NCBI GenBank assembly: GCA_900104855.1
Contig: FNSS01000001.1
Coordinates: 6,395,001 to 6,459,000, forward strand
Source of the DNA: Rhizobiales bacterium GAS188
Lineage (GTDB): Bacteria; Pseudomonadota; Alphaproteobacteria; Rhizobiales; Beijerinckiaceae
Reading direction: 5' to 3'
Length of the DNA stretch: 64,000 nucleotides
Both the position numbers and the translations under genes were made by a program. The notes below the pieces were generated by a model, which was not told where the DNA came from, ran no database searches, and worked only from the letters and a program-made list of their open reading frames with translations. This document shows, one piece after another, positions 4,401 through 11,519 of the stretch; the first letter of the stretch is position 1, and each line of letters begins with the position of its first letter.

Positions 4401-4751
4401 AAAATCCTGCGGGAGACATGAGCCCTCCCTTCGCCGGCGGCTGGCATAACAGCCTGGCCGGTGATGTCCTAGGCTGGTCGAGGCCAGCGAGCCTCCCGCA
4501 CCGAGCGGCCCGTGTTGGCCGTGCTTGCAAGGCGTCGCCTGCCGTCATCGAATCATGATTCGCAGCGACAGGTAGAATCGCACGCCGGTAGAATCACGGC
4601 GGGCTCGACGAGCTTGTGAAGGATTACCGAAGTTGGGCGGACGCTCTCTGCTCGGAGTTGTCGAGAAATGTCCCGGTGCCGGCCCCAATGATGCCGTCGT
4701 CATAACGAGAGAACTGTGCTATTTCTTGCGAATCGGGGAGGGGATCGCAAA
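4387..4751. other. gene-free leader upstream of the Cys-rich cluster
   Basis: No gene is seen. The stretch must hold the promoter of the Cys-rich cluster. Two copies of the 9-mer GGTAGAATC occur 16 bp apart at 4571 and 4587; a third lies at 10465, just after the cluster. A strong Shine-Dalgarno-like run, GGGGAGGGG, ends the stretch at about 4735-4743, 8 bases before the GTG at 4752. Confidence 0.45.
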
Positions 4752-5960
4752 GTGACGAGAAGTGGCCGTCCCGGCGCCGCGCTTTTCACCTTGCTGCTTC
4801 TGTTCTTCTTGCAGTGCCTCGGCTGCGCTTCGGCCAATCCCGGATGCAGCCTCGGCGATATCGGCCAGGCCGCCAAGGACACTTTCACCAACATCCCGGC
4901 GAGCTGCGCCCCTCAGGCCGCCGATCCCGCCTTCTACCCGGCGCTCGGCTATATCATCGCCCTGTTGCAGACGCCGCAAGGGACAGCTTTCTGCGATGCG
5001 GCGGAGAACGCCAACGCCTCCGCCATGGCCAATGCTTGGAAGCAATTGCCGGACTTCATCAAGGTGAAGCTCGAGCCGCTCTTGGGGGATTTGAGCGCGG
5101 ATGCCTCGGCCGCGCTCGACGTTGCCGCCTGTGCCTGCAAGACCGCGCAATGGAAGGGGCCGGGCGATCTCGCGGGAGATTTCGGCGCTTGCGTCTCGGA
5201 TGCGCTGTGTTCCGCGCAAGATTGGTTGCACGATAACGTCTCATCGGATTTCAGCTCGTGCACTGGTCCGCCGCCGCAGCCGCCGCAGCTCATCGATTGC
5301 CGCGTCGATCCCTGCGCGGCCGGCCTGCATGCCTGCGATACGGGCGTTCCCATAGCTGGCACCTATGGTGTCCAATGCTTCTCCGGTGATCGCGGCTATG
5401 TCTGCCAGGGCAGCTTCTGCTTTTCCGAGAATCTGTTCTCCACGGGCGAGGGCAATTACTGCTTCTGTCCGCCGGCGATGCAGCGCCATGATGGGTTCAT
5501 CCAGGACATCGAGGGCAACTGCGCGGCTTATGTGCTCTGCGCCTGTCCCGCGGACACCCAGCCGCTGAGCGCGACGGGGGCAGGCGCCTATATCTGCATG
5601 TGTCCGGATACCGGATTGCCGGTGAATGACGATGGATCATGTCCCGCGCCGCCGCCGAAATGCGAGCCGAGCTGCCCGGCGGGTTTTGTCTCCAAAATCA
5701 GCGACAAGCAGTCTTGCACCTATAGCTGCGAGTGCCCCGACGGGCTGACCAAGGCCGGCGATAAATGCGTGAGCCCCTGTGCCGATCCAAGCGACGTGCT
5801 GCTGGAAAGCGGGGCCTGCTGCCCGGCTGCCCAGGCGACATCCTGCGGCACTTGCTGCCCCGCCGGCATGGTGCCGGATGCCACGGGGCAGAGCTGCGTG
5901 ACGAAGCCGAAAGGCAAGGGGCCGCCCAAGCTCCCCAAACAACCCCTCAAGAGGCAGTGA
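4752..5960 (+). CDS. exported cysteine-rich protein, gene 1 of the Cys-rich cluster
   Basis: I do not recognise this as a named family. The 402-residue protein has a clear signal peptide: RSGR, a leucine/phenylalanine core (ALFTLLLLFFLQCLG) and a probable cleavage after CASA. The mature part has about 35 cysteines. Residues ~30-160 look helical, with scattered cysteines; from ~165 on, short Cys modules of the form CxC-x(n)-C and CCPA repeat (NYCFCPPAM, YICMCPD, YSCECPDG, CCPAGMVPD), reminiscent of EGF- or TIL-like folds. The tail is basic and proline-rich (KGKGPPKLPKQPLKRQ). I chose the GTG at 4752 over the GTG at 4716 because of the Shine-Dalgarno just before it. The next gene begins 4 bases after the stop, so the two are co-transcribed. 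The many cysteines imply disulfides formed outside the cytoplasm, fitting the thiol oxidoreductase two genes downstream. Confidence 0.8.
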   Translation: MTRSGRPGAALFTLLLLFFLQCLGCASANPGCSLGDIGQAAKDTFTNIPASCAPQAADPAFYPALGYIIALLQTPQGTAFCDAAENANASAMANAWKQLPDFIKVKLEPLLGDLSADASAALDVAACACKTAQWKGPGDLAGDFGACVSDALCSAQDWLHDNVSSDFSSCTGPPPQPPQLIDCRVDPCAAGLHACDTGVPIAGTYGVQCFSGDRGYVCQGSFCFSENLFSTGEGNYCFCPPAMQRHDGFIQDIEGNCAAYVLCACPADTQPLSATGAGAYICMCPDTGLPVNDDGSCPAPPPKCEPSCPAGFVSKISDKQSCTYSCECPDGLTKAGDKCVSPCADPSDVLLESGACCPAAQATSCGTCCPAGMVPDATGQSCVTKPKGKGPPKLPKQPLKRQ

Positions 5961-5964
5961 CGCG

Positions 5965-8900
5965 ATGGTGACCATTCGCGTCAAACCCGCATTACGCGCC
6001 CAGGCGCCGCTCATATTGGCGCGGCTGTCCCTGTTGGTCGCGGCCATGCTTGTGTGGGGCATCGTTCCGTCCTCCGCCCAGCCGGTGCCGCTTGGCCTGC
6101 TCGCGCCAGGCAACGCCGTGGTCACGGGATTTTCCGGCGTGGTCGCGCCGGCTGAGATCGCTCCGGGTGTCGATCCGCTCGGCTGGACCTTCATCGATGC
6201 GGACGGGCCTTCGCTGCGCGTGGTGGATTTGCGGAATATGCGCGGCCCCCTGGATGCCAGGCTGGTCGGAGCTCCCAAACCCTTCACCATCGCGGCCGCG
6301 CAGATCGGCCAGGTTTTCGCGGTCGCCCTCGATAACGCGGTGCCGCCGAATATCTATGCCGCCGCGGCCTCCGCCTTTGGTCTGCACATTGTGAGGGATG
6401 CGGGTGGCCAACCCGCTCACCAACGCATCGGCGCCCCGGGGACGAGCTTCATGCCGGGCCTCTGGGGACAGGCGGCGCCGGCGGGTGGGCCGGGATCGAT
6501 CTGGAAGATCGATGGGGTAACCGGCGCCGTGACCCTGTTTGCCAATGTGGGGCATGACGGCACAGCGAATTCCGGGCCGGCGCTCGGCGGATTGGCCTTC
6601 GACCCGGACAGCGATTCCTTCTTCGTCGCCGATCGCGAGAGCGGGCTGATCCATCGCTTCGATCTGAGAGGCGCGGAGGTCAGCCGTTACGATCACGGCG
6701 TGCAAGGCCGCATGGCACAGGGGCTGCCTCCCGTTGCGCACGACCCGGCGCGCCGGCTTGATATCACCAGCAGCGCTTTTGATGCGACGCGGCCCGAAAC
6801 CTGGAACTACGCAGCCCCGGAGCGCCGCCCATTCGGATTGGCGGTGCATGGGGGGAGGCTTTACTACGCCGTCGCCGACGGCTTGCAGATCTGGTCGGCG
6901 GCGATCGCCCCGGATGGCCTGGCGGATCCGATGCTCGAGATCACGGTTCCTCCGGGAAACGGCCCGACCGAAATCTCGAAGATCACCTTCGACGATCAGG
7001 GCCGCATGATCCTCGCGGAGCGGCCGGCGCCGAACGGAGCGGAAGATTTTCATGCGCTGACGCAACCGGGCGCCGGCCGGGTACTGCGCTATGCCATTGC
7101 GGAAGTCTATCCGGGCCTGGCGCGGAGCTGGCAGGCCGTGCCCGACGATTATTCCATCGGCTTTCCGCAAGGCATGACGAACGGCAATGGCGGCGTGGCG
7201 ATCGGCTTCGCCTATGATCGCTCCGGCCGGATCGATTTCGGCAGTTGCGGCGGCTTTCTCTGGTCCACCGGGGAGCAGCTCCGCAAATCGGGCGACCCAT
7301 CGGTCCTGGCGCGCTTGGACCCTTCGATGCCGCTGAATGTCGATGGTCTGCAGGGCAATCTGATCTGGAGCATTCGTCCGGGCAATACGCCGCCGCTCAG
7401 AAGCTATTTCATCGATTACGACGATCGGTTCGATGATGATGCGGCGCGCGGACATCTGGGGGATGTGGCGATCTGGCGCGTTTGCGGCCCGGTTTTGCGT
7501 GGCGGCTGGATGTTGCCTGGCTGGTTCGCAGGATGGGGCGAGGGCGGCGGCGGGTCTCTTGCATCGCCGCCCCCTCTCACCTGTCCGGCCGATCAGCAAA
7601 AGCCTGGCTTCCAATGCTGCCCGAAGGGCACTTCGCCAGGTGCCAATGGCCAATGCAAGCCATGGTGCCCCAATGGCAAAATGGATCCGCAAGGTCAGAA
7701 TCTTTGCGGCTTGGGTTTCGACAATGCGAGCTTCGACCCCGGCAATCCGAACAAGCTCACCTGTATCGGAGGCGCGGCGCCCATCGCCGGCAAGGGCATC
7801 CTGAGCTGCGCCGGTCACTCGCCTTTGCTGAATGGCGCCATTTGCCAGGCCGGTTGGAGCAAGCAGGATGTTCCAGGCATCGGCATCATCTGCCGTCCGA
7901 CCCCATTGCAGACGCAGTGCCCGCCGGGCCAGCAGGTGAGCCCCATCGACAATCATTGCCACGCCCTGTGCCTCGGCGGCACGGCTTGGCCGAGCCTGCA
8001 GTGCTGTGCACCAGGCTCGGCGGTGACCGCTTCAGGGCAGTGCTGTCCCGCGGGCTCGAGCGTCGACCCCAAGACCGGAGCTTGCGGCACCAAGATCTCC
8101 ATCTGTCCCCTGGGCTCCAAAGCGGATCCGAGAACCGGCATCTGCTCGCCGCCGGGCGGCGCCTGCCCACCGGGCTCCACGGTCGATCCGCGGACCGGGG
8201 CCTGCGCCAAGATCACCGTGACATGCTTGCCTGGCCTGTCGCCCGATCCGCTCAGCGGCGAGTGCAAGAGGCCACCGCCGAAAATATCCTGCCCGGCGTC
8301 GCAGCAAGGCAGCGATGGCAGTTGCTGCAAGGCTGGCTGGTCGCCCAACACTGCGGCGGGCGGCTGCTGTCCGCCCGGACAGGCGGCGGGGCCTGGAGGT
8401 GCCTGCAAGATCGTGCTCTGCCCCGCTCCGGGCAAGCAGGTCGGCGGCAAATGCTGCTCGCCCGAAGATCTGAAGCCCGGCGGGGCCTGCGCGGTTGCCC
8501 TGTGTGGTTCGGCCGGCGCGCCTGCCGGCCCCAGCAATGCCTGCTGCGATGCCGCCCATCTCTATGCCGGCCGCAATGGCGCGCAGGCGTGTTGCCCGAC
8601 GCCGCTCGTCAATGGCCAATGCTCACAATCGGGATCGGGAAAAGGTACGCCCGTCCTGCCCAAATGCGTGCCGGGCTCGACTGATCCGAGTTGCTGCGCC
8701 GCCGGCTATCAATGGGCCGGCAAGGCCTGTTGCCTCGCATCTCAACTGAGTTCCAGCGGCCAATGCTGCCCGGCAGGGCAAAAGCCTTCGGGGCCGAATA
8801 ATTCGCAGTGCCAGCCCGATCTCAAGGGCGAGATCCCACCCATCGGCGATGGCGGTCCTGGATCGCTCAATGCTGGCGGCCAATGCTGCGCCGCCGGGCG

Positions 8901-9588
8901 GATTCCGACGGCGAGCGGCGTTTGCTGCGCGCCTGGTCAAACGACATCGAGCGGACTTTGCTGCCCGGCCGGACAGATGCCTGATCCAAGGAACAGGCGC
9001 GCCTGCGTGCCGACGCGCAGTTGCGGCCTTCGCGAAACCCTGGTGAACGGCACATGCTGTCCAAATTCGAATCTCTACAAGGACGCCGCCGGGCAGAACC
9101 AATGCTGCGGCCAGATCGTCGATCCACTGAAGAATAGCTGCTCGAGCTCGATCCAGGGCGTGACGCCCGAATGTTTCGCGGGATATGTCAAGACGCAGGA
9201 CGGATCGTGTTGCGCCGAGAATCTCATCGGGCCCGATGGGCGCTGTTCGCCAGCCGTCAAACGCCTGCCGTTGCCGCCACCCATTCGCTTGCCGCAAGAG
9301 GAACCGCCGCCGGTCCGGATCGAGGGCGGCCCGGGCATTGTGCAGCCGATCCAGCCTGTCCATCCGCGGCCGCGCCAGCCGCCGCCGGTCTGGCCGTCGC
9401 GGCCGCCGCGACAGATCCTTGCGCCGCGCCAGCCGCCGCCAGCCTTGCCTTCACGACCTGTGCCGCCGCGGATGATGCGTCCAGGGCCCGGCCAGTTCCA
9501 GCGCATGCCCCAATTGCGCCCGCAACCGAGGCCGGTTGTCCCAGGGCAGCGATGCGCGTTCATCAATGGCATCAAGGTGTGCCGGTGA
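5965..9588 (+). CDS. large exported protein: probable beta-propeller plus long cysteine-rich repeat region, gene 2 of the Cys-rich cluster
   Basis: The protein has 1207 residues and no family name that I recognise. A signal peptide (LSLLVAAMLVWGIVPSSA, then QP) is followed by about 480 residues with few cysteines and repeated strand-like blocks (LGGLAFDPDSDSFFVAD, PFGLAVHGGRLYYAVADG, EISKITFDDQGRMILAE), which looks like a six-bladed NHL/SMP-30 type beta-propeller (inference). From ~530 to ~1125 come many Cys modules of ~15-25 residues: CPADQQKPGFQCCPKG, QCCPAGSSVDPKTGAC, CPPGSTVDPRTGAC, GQCCPAGQKPS. The last ~95 residues are rich in proline and arginine and end in CAFINGIKVCR. The modules resemble those of the preceding gene. 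The ATG lies 4 bases after that gene's stop. A surface adhesin, sensor or matrix protein is possible, but no function is shown. Confidence 0.8.
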   Translation: MVTIRVKPALRAQAPLILARLSLLVAAMLVWGIVPSSAQPVPLGLLAPGNAVVTGFSGVVAPAEIAPGVDPLGWTFIDADGPSLRVVDLRNMRGPLDARLVGAPKPFTIAAAQIGQVFAVALDNAVPPNIYAAAASAFGLHIVRDAGGQPAHQRIGAPGTSFMPGLWGQAAPAGGPGSIWKIDGVTGAVTLFANVGHDGTANSGPALGGLAFDPDSDSFFVADRESGLIHRFDLRGAEVSRYDHGVQGRMAQGLPPVAHDPARRLDITSSAFDATRPETWNYAAPERRPFGLAVHGGRLYYAVADGLQIWSAAIAPDGLADPMLEITVPPGNGPTEISKITFDDQGRMILAERPAPNGAEDFHALTQPGAGRVLRYAIAEVYPGLARSWQAVPDDYSIGFPQGMTNGNGGVAIGFAYDRSGRIDFGSCGGFLWSTGEQLRKSGDPSVLARLDPSMPLNVDGLQGNLIWSIRPGNTPPLRSYFIDYDDRFDDDAARGHLGDVAIWRVCGPVLRGGWMLPGWFAGWGEGGGGSLASPPPLTCPADQQKPGFQCCPKGTSPGANGQCKPWCPNGKMDPQGQNLCGLGFDNASFDPGNPNKLTCIGGAAPIAGKGILSCAGHSPLLNGAICQAGWSKQDVPGIGIICRPTPLQTQCPPGQQVSPIDNHCHALCLGGTAWPSLQCCAPGSAVTASGQCCPAGSSVDPKTGACGTKISICPLGSKADPRTGICSPPGGACPPGSTVDPRTGACAKITVTCLPGLSPDPLSGECKRPPPKISCPASQQGSDGSCCKAGWSPNTAAGGCCPPGQAAGPGGACKIVLCPAPGKQVGGKCCSPEDLKPGGACAVALCGSAGAPAGPSNACCDAAHLYAGRNGAQACCPTPLVNGQCSQSGSGKGTPVLPKCVPGSTDPSCCAAGYQWAGKACCLASQLSSSGQCCPAGQKPSGPNNSQCQPDLKGEIPPIGDGGPGSLNAGGQCCAAGRIPTASGVCCAPGQTTSSGLCCPAGQMPDPRNRRACVPTRSCGLRETLVNGTCCPNSNLYKDAAGQNQCCGQIVDPLKNSCSSSIQGVTPECFAGYVKTQDGSCCAENLIGPDGRCSPAVKRLPLPPPIRLPQEEPPPVRIEGGPGIVQPIQPVHPRPRQPPPVWPSRPPRQILAPRQPPPALPSRPVPPRMMRPGPGQFQRMPQLRPQPRPVVPGQRCAFINGIKVCR

Positions 9589-9619
9589 TGGCCGGCACAG
9601 CTGAAGAAGCGAGGCGAGC

Positions 9620-10444
9620 ATGAGACGCAAGATTCTCCTGGCCCATATGGTTCCGGCAGCGGCAGTGCTTCTGGCGATGGCGGTGCAGCCTTCGCCGGTC
9701 TCGGCGCAGGCCACGCGCGGCGAGATCGAAGCGATCGTGAAACAATATCTCGCCCAACACCCCGAGGAGATCGGGGATATGGTCAAGGACTACCTCGCCA
9801 AGCATCCCGAAGCGTTGCAGCAGGCCCTGATCGAGATGATGAAGAAGCGGACGGGGGCGGGCGAGCAGACGGCAAGTGCGCGCCCTGCCGCTCCCGACAA
9901 ATCCGCGCTCATCCACGACAATGCGAATATGCTGTTCGGCTCGAGCCGCCAGGTGACCTTGGGCAATGCCCAAGGCGACGTCACTCTTGTCGAGTTCTTC
10001 GACTATAATTGCGGCTATTGCAGGCGTGCCCTGTCCGATACGGTTACTTTGCTCAAGGATGATCCCAAGCTCAGGATCGTGCTCAAGGAATTCCCGATTC
10101 TCGGGCCAGGCTCGGTCGAAGCCGCGAAGATCGGCGTCGCCGTGCGTATGCAGGACCCGACGGGCAAGAAATATCTCGCATTCCATCAGAAGCTTCTCGG
10201 AGGCCGCGGACCAGCCAACCGCGACACGGCGCTCGCGGCCGCGCGCGAGGCTGGTATCGACATGGCGCGGCTCGAGGCCGATGGCACGAGCGACGAGATA
10301 GCCAAGACCTTGGATGAGACCCGCAGGCTCGGACAAACGCTCGGCATCAACGGCACGCCTGGCTATGTGGTCGGCACCATGATCGTGCCGGGCGCCATCG
10401 GGGCAGAGGGCCTCAAGCGCGTGATCCTGCAGGCGCGGAACTGA
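9620..10444 (+). CDS. exported DsbA-family thiol-disulfide oxidoreductase (ScsC-like), gene 3 of the Cys-rich cluster
   Basis: This is a 274-residue periplasmic thioredoxin-fold protein. The signal peptide ends in PVSA followed by QA. Residues ~33-75 form an amphipathic helix pair (IVKQYLAQHPEEIGDMV, then DYLAKHPEALQQAL) like the N-terminal oligomerisation segment of ScsC-type proteins. The thioredoxin fold carries the active site FFDYNCGYCRRAL (CGYC) and the cis-proline loop NGTPGYVVG. ScsC/DsbA proteins form or rearrange disulfides in exported proteins; whether this one oxidises or isomerises cannot be read from sequence. It begins 31 bases after the Cys-rich protein gene, with GCGAGG before the ATG, so it very likely belongs to the same operon and serves the two Cys-rich products (inference). 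No dedicated membrane partner (DsbB or DsbD) is in the window. Confidence 0.9.
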   Translation: MRRKILLAHMVPAAAVLLAMAVQPSPVSAQATRGEIEAIVKQYLAQHPEEIGDMVKDYLAKHPEALQQALIEMMKKRTGAGEQTASARPAAPDKSALIHDNANMLFGSSRQVTLGNAQGDVTLVEFFDYNCGYCRRALSDTVTLLKDDPKLRIVLKEFPILGPGSVEAAKIGVAVRMQDPTGKKYLAFHQKLLGGRGPANRDTALAAAREAGIDMARLEADGTSDEIAKTLDETRRLGQTLGINGTPGYVVGTMIVPGAIGAEGLKRVILQARN

Positions 10445-10532: not shown

Positions 10533-11519
10533 ATGCCGAATGTCGTAGAGCCCACTGAAGCGCTAGAGCCGGCGGAGGGCAGCGATGCGGTCCGGCTGCT
10601 CATGCAGCGCTGGCTCGACGCGCTCGCCCATGAACGGCGGGCCTCGCCGAAGACGGTCGAAGCCTATGGGCGCGATCTGCGCCAATTCCTCGACTTCCGG
10701 GCAATGCCGCACAGCGCCGAGATCCGGCGCTCGCCGCTGAGGCAGGCCACCGATCTCGCCACACTGAGCGCTGCCGATATCCGCGCCTTCCTCGCCTCGC
10801 GCCGCGAGGCGGGCGTCGTCAACCGTTCGCTCGCCCGCCAGATCGCGGCGCTGCGCGGCTTTGCCCGTTTCCTGGAACGCGAGACCGGCATTCGCTGCGA
10901 GGCCCTCTTCGCCATCCGGGCGCCCAAGGCGCCGCGCTCGCTACCGCGCCCGGTCGCGGCGACGCCGGCCCGCGCCATGTGCGAGGCCGAGACGATCGAG
11001 GACGGGGCGCGCGAGGCCTGGATCGCGGCGCGCGATGCCGCGGTGCTCGCACTCCTTTACGGCTGCGGCTTGCGCATCTCGGAGGCGCTGTCACTCTGCG
11101 GACGCGATCTCGCAGCGCTCGATGCCGGCCGGATCACCGTGATCGGCAAGGGAGGGCGGGCCCGCGGCCTGCCGGTGATCGCGCAAGTCGCGCAGGCGGT
11201 GCGCCTCTATCTGTCCCAATGCCCCTATAGCGCCAAGCCGGACGCGCCGCTCTTCCGCGGGGCGCGGGGCGGTCCGCTCTCGGCGCGCATCATCCAGGCG
11301 ACGGTCGCAAGGTTGCGCGGCGTGCTGGGTTTGCCCGACAGCGCGACGCCGCATGCACTGCGCCACGCTTTCGCAACCCATCTCCTGGCGCGCGGTGGCG
11401 ATCTGCGCGCCATCCAGGAGCTACTCGGCCATGCCTCCTTGTCGACCACGCAGGTCTATACTGCCGTCGACCAGGCTCGCCTCATCGACGCCTATCGCAA
11501 CGCCCATCCGAGAGCGTAG
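10533..11519 (+). CDS. xerC: tyrosine recombinase XerC
   Basis: The 328-residue protein acts with XerD at dif sites to resolve chromosome dimers. An N-terminal SAM-like DNA-binding domain (about 25-125: SPKTVEAYGRDLRQFL) is followed by the catalytic domain with the full R-K-H-R-H-Y set: R in CGLRISEAL, K in IGKGGRARG, H and R in HALRHAFATH, H in LGHASLSTTQ and the nucleophile in VYTAVD. The ATG has GGGGAG 7-8 bases upstream. It follows the Cys-rich cluster by 88 bp. XerC rather than a phage integrase is favoured by size, motif spacing and absence of phage genes. Confidence 0.92.
   Translation: MPNVVEPTEALEPAEGSDAVRLLMQRWLDALAHERRASPKTVEAYGRDLRQFLDFRAMPHSAEIRRSPLRQATDLATLSAADIRAFLASRREAGVVNRSLARQIAALRGFARFLERETGIRCEALFAIRAPKAPRSLPRPVAATPARAMCEAETIEDGAREAWIAARDAAVLALLYGCGLRISEALSLCGRDLAALDAGRITVIGKGGRARGLPVIAQVAQAVRLYLSQCPYSAKPDAPLFRGARGGPLSARIIQATVARLRGVLGLPDSATPHALRHAFATHLLARGGDLRAIQELLGHASLSTTQVYTAVDQARLIDAYRNAHPRA

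Follow-up and report, generated by a model that had tools for sequence, protein, structure and literature searches.

The genes for the DsbL/DsbI enzymes and for the arylsulfate sulfotransferase AssT lie together in uropathogenic Escherichia coli and Salmonella, and in chlamydiae two Cys-rich proteins of the envelope, one small and one large (OmcA and OmcB), are encoded side by side and presumably cross-linked by disulfides. To our knowledge few disulfide enzymes come with their own clients, and the clients that we know of are far poorer in Cys than those described here. In the account given in PMC6067686, DsbL is an extra DsbA homologue, maybe dedicated to its substrate, with AssT as its native substrate; alpha-DsbA2, as treated in PMC6450060, is placed in no gene cluster. 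Here we describe a cluster of three genes, A, B and C, within a stretch of 64,000 nucleotides of Rhizobiales bacterium GAS188 (G000:C1:6395001-6459000, hereafter the window; source genome assembly of 9.09 Mb in 3 contigs), where two genes for Cys-rich proteins are followed by one for a thiol oxidoreductase. We would give roughly even weight to the view that the three genes make up a self-contained mobile cassette, whose proteins A and B would form a disulfide-linked pair and whose protein C would be the pair's own foldase. No description of an A-B-C cluster was found among the best-ranked matches in open-licence PubMed Central (PMC) papers. A preliminary description made from the DNA knew of no named system with this architecture, and the pair is without a family name in the libraries searched: neither A nor B gave a Pfam match above cut-off or an NCBIfam match at E up to 1.

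Gene order and cysteine parity

The features of the cluster are as follows, all on the plus strand.

4735..4743, plus strand: sequence resembling a ribosome-binding site, GGGGAGGGG, 8 bases 5' of the GTG start of gene A, read from the sequence
4752..5960, plus strand: gene A, Cys-rich, 402 amino acids, signal-peptide-like start
5742..5909, plus strand: C-terminal Cys module of A, resembling a module in the B tail (tblastn matches; A profile matches B tail)
5965..9588, plus strand: gene B, 1207 amino acids, signal-peptide-like start, 69 Cys in the mature form
6079..7485, plus strand: N-terminal domain of B, residues 39-507, probable beta-propeller, most likely six-bladed (Foldseek on a low-confidence model; weak DFPase profile match)
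7486..9264, plus strand: Cys-rich tail of B, residues 508-1100, 65 Cys, many CC pairs (sequence, alignment)
8857..9018, plus strand: stretch of the B tail matching the A profile, the common Cys module (E 7e-6)
8884..8886, plus strand: codon of B C974, weak candidate for an unpaired Cys (tail alignment)
9265..9549, plus strand: proline-rich segment close to the C-terminus of B (sequence)
9620..10444, plus strand: gene C, ScsC/DsbA-family thiol oxidoreductase, 274 amino acids (Pfam DSBA, Thioredoxin_4, ScsC_N)
10010..10021, plus strand: active-site CGYC of C, residues 131-134 (sequence, alignment)
10352..10360, plus strand: GT-cisPro loop of C, residues 245-247 (alignment, invariant in 10/10)

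The preliminary description had the genes co-directional, 4 and 31 bases apart, and all provided with signal peptides. The coordinates confirm this layout, with 4 bases between A and B and 31 between B and C, and all three proteins begin with signal-peptide-like N-termini as judged by eye. The GTG at 4752 is in our judgement the better start for gene A, because GGGGAGGGG sits 8 bases ahead of it. Promoter-like and terminator-like sites were about as many as in shuffled sequences (2 vs 0.9 and 2 vs 3.5, respectively). We take the cluster to be real and not a product of chance, because C exceeds the Pfam cut-offs and because the order A-B-C is found again in further genomes.

The window's genome is included in each of the following counts. 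The N-domain of B was found in 22/397 genomes of the family, and its profile in 11/349 genomes of the phylum, none of which lay outside the order of the window; whole B was matched in 17/60 relatives. A is less common than B, occurring in 9/397 genomes of the family (the A of G586, missed in that scan, was found later), in 3/397 of the order and in 1/337 of the class. Bradyrhizobium sp. LTSP885 and Xanthobacter tagetidis ATCC 700314 are named carriers of A, B and C. A is followed by B and then C on one contig in 10 of the 14 A-bearing genomes (the window's, L025, L026, G024, G003, G002, G522, G582, G586 and G145). Two others, G001 and G569, have a contig break inside B and carry the rest of B, then C, on another contig, so that the joining is inferred; in G353 the contig ends at A and C is undecidable, and the fourth, G504, has A and B without C. 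Taken together, C adjoins B in 12/13 decidable loci with A, two of these over a contig break, vs 0/7 loci without A (L028, L029, L031, L033, L057, L069 and L115, chosen for downstream sequence being present and for over 50% N-domain identity; Fisher p 1e-4, uncorrected for kinship). Judged by these loci, enzyme C tracks A and not Cys-rich B, because none of the seven close B genes without A has an adjoining C, and a general association of C with Cys-rich B proteins is ruled out by the A-lacking loci. When reading frames were compared between 13 loci with A and 10 without it, the widely common ones among the 25 largest groups were the cassette and Methylocystis-type neighbours. No flanking gene was consistently common to 15 A-bearing loci: the widest, an ABC-ATPase-like frame (by eye), occurred in 5 loci at differing places, followed by one frame in 3 loci and seven in 2. 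The Methylocystis-type B genes without A and C (L028, L029, L031 and L069) have common downstream neighbours of their own, including small proteins of 183 to 194 amino acids with N-termini resembling signal peptides.

The dedication of the enzyme to the pair, as first proposed, thus stands in an evolutionary sense (one group in the C tree, conserved order, no consistent flanking gene) and applies only to the A-bearing form, as Cys-rich B occurs without an adjoining C (0/7) and G504 has A and B without it. The expectation that such an enzyme would always adjoin Cys-rich homologues fails in part, for B homologues with 40 to 58 Cys lack an adjoining C.

According to the data treated in PMC7678975, exported bacterial proteins tend to even Cys numbers, and E. 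coli shows this trend more strongly than Burkholderia does. The Cys number of mature A is odd in 14/14 genomes (29, 31, 33 or 35), with 25 Cys invariant. Mature B of A-bearing loci has 35, 39, 39, 43, 45, 49, 49, 67, 69 and 69 Cys, odd in 10/10 intact loci, whereas B of close relatives in which no A was found has 40, 44, 54, 54, 56, 56 and 58, even in 7/7. Distant B proteins with no A found were even in 12/13 (the exception being G518, 21), 6/8 (L062 and L064, 7 each) and 4/4. This brings the B proteins with no A found to 29/32 even; seven of the 32 are near kin with 8 Cys each, and in the distant L037, L042, L047, L055 (= G518) and L064 the contig ends before an A could show. B parity with and without A differed at Fisher p 6e-7 (first 28 without A; uncorrected), and on a tree of 29 B proteins the odd label needs 2 changes vs an average of 9.0 for shuffled labels. 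Omitted from parity were B proteins cut by a contig end or broken in frame (L027, L030, L041, L045, L048, L051, L058, L061 and L067), second copies of the same locus (L054, L065 and L066) and the B of G582, a short frame which ends over 600 bases ahead of C.

Cys counts therefore shift by tens while parity mostly holds, and B proteins of the A-bearing clade are of another parity than those of close relatives. Since A is odd, B is odd with A and B is mostly even without A, the simplest reading would be one spare Cys per chain, linking A to B. The parity rule, together with this predicted A-S-S-B bond, is the new and most useful point of the analysis, as it replaces the loose notion of a ‘Cys-rich cluster’ by the precise prediction of one A-B disulfide. 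C974 is a weak candidate for the unpaired Cys of B: it is a Cys in 10/10 A-bearing and in 0/3 aligned A-lacking loci, and it is a weak pointer because the A-lacking tails align badly.

The same distribution allows a different account, in which C serves A alone, B folds via the general Dsb machinery, A and B meet non-covalently and the odd Cys go into A-A or B-B homodimers or stay as free thiols. This account, which we consider rather unlikely, agrees with C never adjoining B where A is absent, with B tails of 40-58 Cys that do without C and with the presence of another ScsC-like gene in each of the 17 genomes searched. However, a free-standing B leaves unexplained why B of the A-bearing clade differs in parity from B of close relatives that lack A.

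Enzyme C and the probable movement of the cassette

By its domains C is a ScsC-type thiol oxidoreductase, with Pfam scores of 81.6 bits for DSBA, 58.9 for Thioredoxin_4 and 31.2 for ScsC_N, all exceeding cut-off; the thioredoxin fold, CGYC, cis-Pro loop and ScsC-like N-terminus read earlier from the letters were all recovered. Searched against the Protein Data Bank (PDB), the C profile matched 16 sequences at E up to 1e-6, including 3gyk, 7rgv, 4xvw, 6nen and 4gxz. The structures 4gxz, 6nen and 4xvw are of ScsC-type proteins. The GT-cisPro residues G245, T246 and P247 are invariant in all ten aligned C proteins, and an N-terminal extension is evident from the ScsC_N match at residues 50-70 and from the CxxC coming first at 131. 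Both are features listed for isomerases in the relevant part of PMC6450060, where GT-cisPro is seen in five isomerases and an N-terminal addition of at least 50 residues is the most telling feature. With both of them present, C may act as an isomerase rather than as an oxidase.

At least one other ScsC-like gene was present in each of 17/17 genomes searched. In a tree of 31 rows, from which the C fragment of G569 (143 residues) was left out, the 10 cassette C proteins fell on one side of a branch, apart from the other paralogues, with a support of 93/100 and in 92% of 200 bootstrap trees. The C of G522 (L056:10895-11686) has an unusually long branch of 1.08 and is perhaps relaxed. In mature cassette C proteins the active-site CxxC provides the only Cys (11/11 counted, including G145), and the main housekeeping paralogues have a further C-terminal CxxxxC in 17/17. 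DsbB and DsbD_N matches were found in 5/5 genomes searched; in the window's genome they lie far from the window, the DsbD_N (ScsB/DsbD-type) matches millions of bases off.

These data also bear on whether C might mainly act on copper or serve as a periplasmic isomerase of general use, as ScsC does in Proteus or Caulobacter, having come to adjoin A and B by operon hitch-hiking. The profile matches to the solved ScsC-type structures and the presence of ScsC_N would suit such a role, but the remote position of the DsbD_N matches, the persistence of C with A and B across families and the separation of the cassette group from the housekeeping copy all speak against it, and we consider it improbable.

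The cassette of the window resembles that of Bradyrhizobium more closely than those of its own genus. Between the window's genome and three genomes of the same genus the housekeeping paralogue is 80-91% identical (one partial) and cassette C 51-54%; with Bradyrhizobium, cassette C is 70% and the B N-domain 72% identical. Both the C tree and the B N-domain tree pair the window with Bradyrhizobium, and G145, which belongs to another family, groups with G522 and G504. Pairwise identities of A, B and C correlate with each other at a Pearson value of 0.82-0.86 vs 0.26-0.41 with the housekeeping paralogue; Spearman values are lower (0.59-0.67 vs 0.04-0.11), and the pairs behind these correlations are not independent. 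The cluster is conserved and apparently mobile, and we infer that it moved between families as a unit.

In the DNA around the cluster, a frame at 148-675 of the window resembles by eye the C-terminal part of an IS66-type transposase, which would place mobile DNA near the cassette. Directly 3' of C, at 10533-11519, lies a XerC/D-like tyrosine recombinase (Phage_integrase, 121.5 bits), which is probably chromosomal; it was absent from the frames common to cassette loci in the flanks of 15 A-bearing loci.

The Cys-rich proteins and their proposed assembly

The first estimate of about 35 Cys in mature A, and more in B, was accurate: 35 were counted in the 375 residues of A and 69 in B, and the Cys content of three other window genes compared is 0.4 to 1.5%. 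The CC and CxC modules ascribed to both proteins were found in part, with 5 CxC motifs in A and 17 CC pairs but 0 CxC in B. A consists of an N-domain with 8 invariant Cys, followed by Cys modules. Several of its variable Cys have a pattern in common: examples are 304, 308, 322 and 326, which occur only in the window's genome, Bradyrhizobium and Xanthobacter, and 306 and 324, which are confined to Xanthobacter. Others stand alone. A granulin assignment for the C-terminus was rejected (15.5 bits vs a cut-off of 20.9, with a weak match in 1/12 A members), and three Fusion glycoprotein chains matched by the A profile in the PDB (E 0.016 to 0.2) were judged to be chance. The predicted structure of A had a mean predicted local distance difference test score (pLDDT) of 51.6 and gave no Foldseek match at E under 0.001. 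The A profile match in the B tail supports the common Cys module on which a joint origin of A and B had been proposed. As B also exists without A, the two did not wholly arise together; part of A may instead stem from a B tail, because its C-terminal module recurs there.

In mature B, 67 of the Cys lie beyond residue 510, and the tail DNA holds two short rows of tandem repeats. The predicted structure was poor (mean pLDDT 42.9) and was used solely for the fold class of the N-domain. The best 50 Foldseek matches were mostly propellers at E ~1e-5 (NHL, DFPase and designs, SMP-30, lactonases, LRP2), with low template-modelling scores (query at most 0.14, target at most 0.50); most of these propellers are presumably six-bladed and some seven-bladed. 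A profile of 31 B N-domains matched DFPase weakly in the PDB (E 0.0015 for the whole sequence, 0.035 for the best stretch) over about 98 profile positions. Pfam NHL on the window's B reached 13.0 bits vs a cut-off of 20, and SGL at best E 0.19, in 2/31 members. The N-domain of B is thus probably a beta-propeller, with six blades as the likeliest number. Taken by itself, B belongs to a wider family, composed of a probable propeller and a variable tail, and its 36 members carry DUF11 in 11, PG_binding_1 in 4 and VWA in 2 (E up to 0.01); NCBIfam matches, including DUF11-type and peptidoglycan-related ones, were each found in 1 to 5 of the 36. These domains on B relatives point to the cell envelope or surface. 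A plasmid search gave one match to the B propeller, 34% identical, in Ciceribacter. A secreted enzyme system, in which the propeller would be a hydrolase of the lactonase/DFPase kind and the Cys-rich parts would do no more than stabilise it, might be read from the weak DFPase match and the SMP-30/DFPase folds among the Foldseek matches, but it is the least probable of the alternatives, given the shortness of that match, the poor SGL values and the surface-type domains on B relatives.

On the cassette, its conservation, the grouping of C and the parity pattern, which are established at the level of sequence, the following assembly may be built. A and B would be exported, and most of their Cys would pair within the chain (in the window's genome some 17 disulfides for A and 34 for B), with one left-over Cys per chain joining A to B. 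C, having split off from a housekeeping ScsC-like paralogue, would form and reshuffle the bonds of A and B, its clients, in the periplasm, so that the A-B bond results and not wrong pairings. In the finished complex a rigid Cys-rich stalk would hold out the B propeller, either at the cell envelope or beyond it. With adhesin, coat and enzyme as candidate roles for the complex, we lean towards an envelope or surface structure, and the surface or matrix structure of the preliminary description is plausible. A fuller version we hold tentatively, with less than even confidence: a two-chain protein having one inter-chain disulfide among some fifty intramolecular ones, carried in a mobile kit with its own isomerase, whose B went from even to odd when A joined and whose C was derived from the housekeeping ScsC-like paralogue and enlisted to get that bond right.

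Several observations weigh against this assembly. B tails with 40-58 Cys occur without C, which means that tails of this kind do not in themselves require C. In G504 (98% complete, 5 contigs) A and B are present and odd in Cys number, with another gene following in place of C. The cassette members form one clade, and the counts are therefore not independent events. The B of G582, taken at face value, has 38 Cys and is even despite A, which would give 10/11 odd, and three B relatives without a found A are odd (G518, L062 and L064, the contigs of G518 and L064 ending early). Some variable Cys of A are without a partner that shares their pattern, and odd Cys numbers would suit A-A and B-B dimers or a free thiol as well. 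In the C tree the bootstrap was still unsettled, and the C of G522 is a long branch. Finally, the structure and localisation of the complex are argued from sequence, the models of both A and B being poor.

Comparison with described systems

Like the trimeric ScsC/alpha-DsbA2 isomerases of Proteus, Caulobacter and Wolbachia, C has a DSBA domain, CGYC, GT-cisPro and an N-terminal extension with ScsC_N. Unlike ScsC, it sits with two Cys-rich proteins outside an scs cluster: B lies upstream, the tyrosine recombinase downstream and the DsbD_N matches far off, other scs genes not having been searched. The likeness to DsbL/DsbI with AssT is that of an extra enzyme perhaps dedicated to specific substrates, and the gene of C is kept beside the client gene, as expected of a dedicated Dsb enzyme, in 12/13 decidable A-bearing genomes. 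DsbL has its own DsbB-like partner, DsbI, whereas C is ScsC-like, the DsbB and DsbD_N matches are far from the window and the clients differ. G504 argues against an absolute need of the clients for C; it seems to have lost C, which its near relatives G522 and G145 keep, and offers a natural test for A and B without the enzyme.

With the chlamydial OmcA/OmcB the cassette shares a pair of Cys-rich proteins, but it has an oxidoreductase of its own, and Pfam searches with 36 members of the B family (E up to 0.01) and 12 of the A family (E up to 0.1) matched no chlamydial Cys-rich family. LRP2/megalin combines propellers and Cys-rich repeats, and it ranked first among the Foldseek matches of the low-confidence B model. 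It was absent from the PDB profile search of the B N-domain, which gave DFPases and their engineered kin, and the resemblance of B to ectodomains of the low-density lipoprotein receptor type is one of layout only, taken from that model.

The DUF11 and PG-binding proteins of the same order have an N-terminal domain homologous to that of B, and differ from it in their tails, several of which carry DUF11, PG_binding_1 or VWA. Beside those relatives that were fetched there was no match to A or C, contig ends limiting some. This unnamed propeller-like domain family of the order, fused to DUF11, PG_binding_1, VWA or Cys-rich tails, is wider than the cassette and presumably consists of surface proteins, and the N-domain of B ties A and B to it. 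The clients of the cassette have 29-35 Cys in A and 35-69 in B, and with such Cys-rich clients beside a private ScsC-like enzyme, substrate specificity becomes testable on a natural set.

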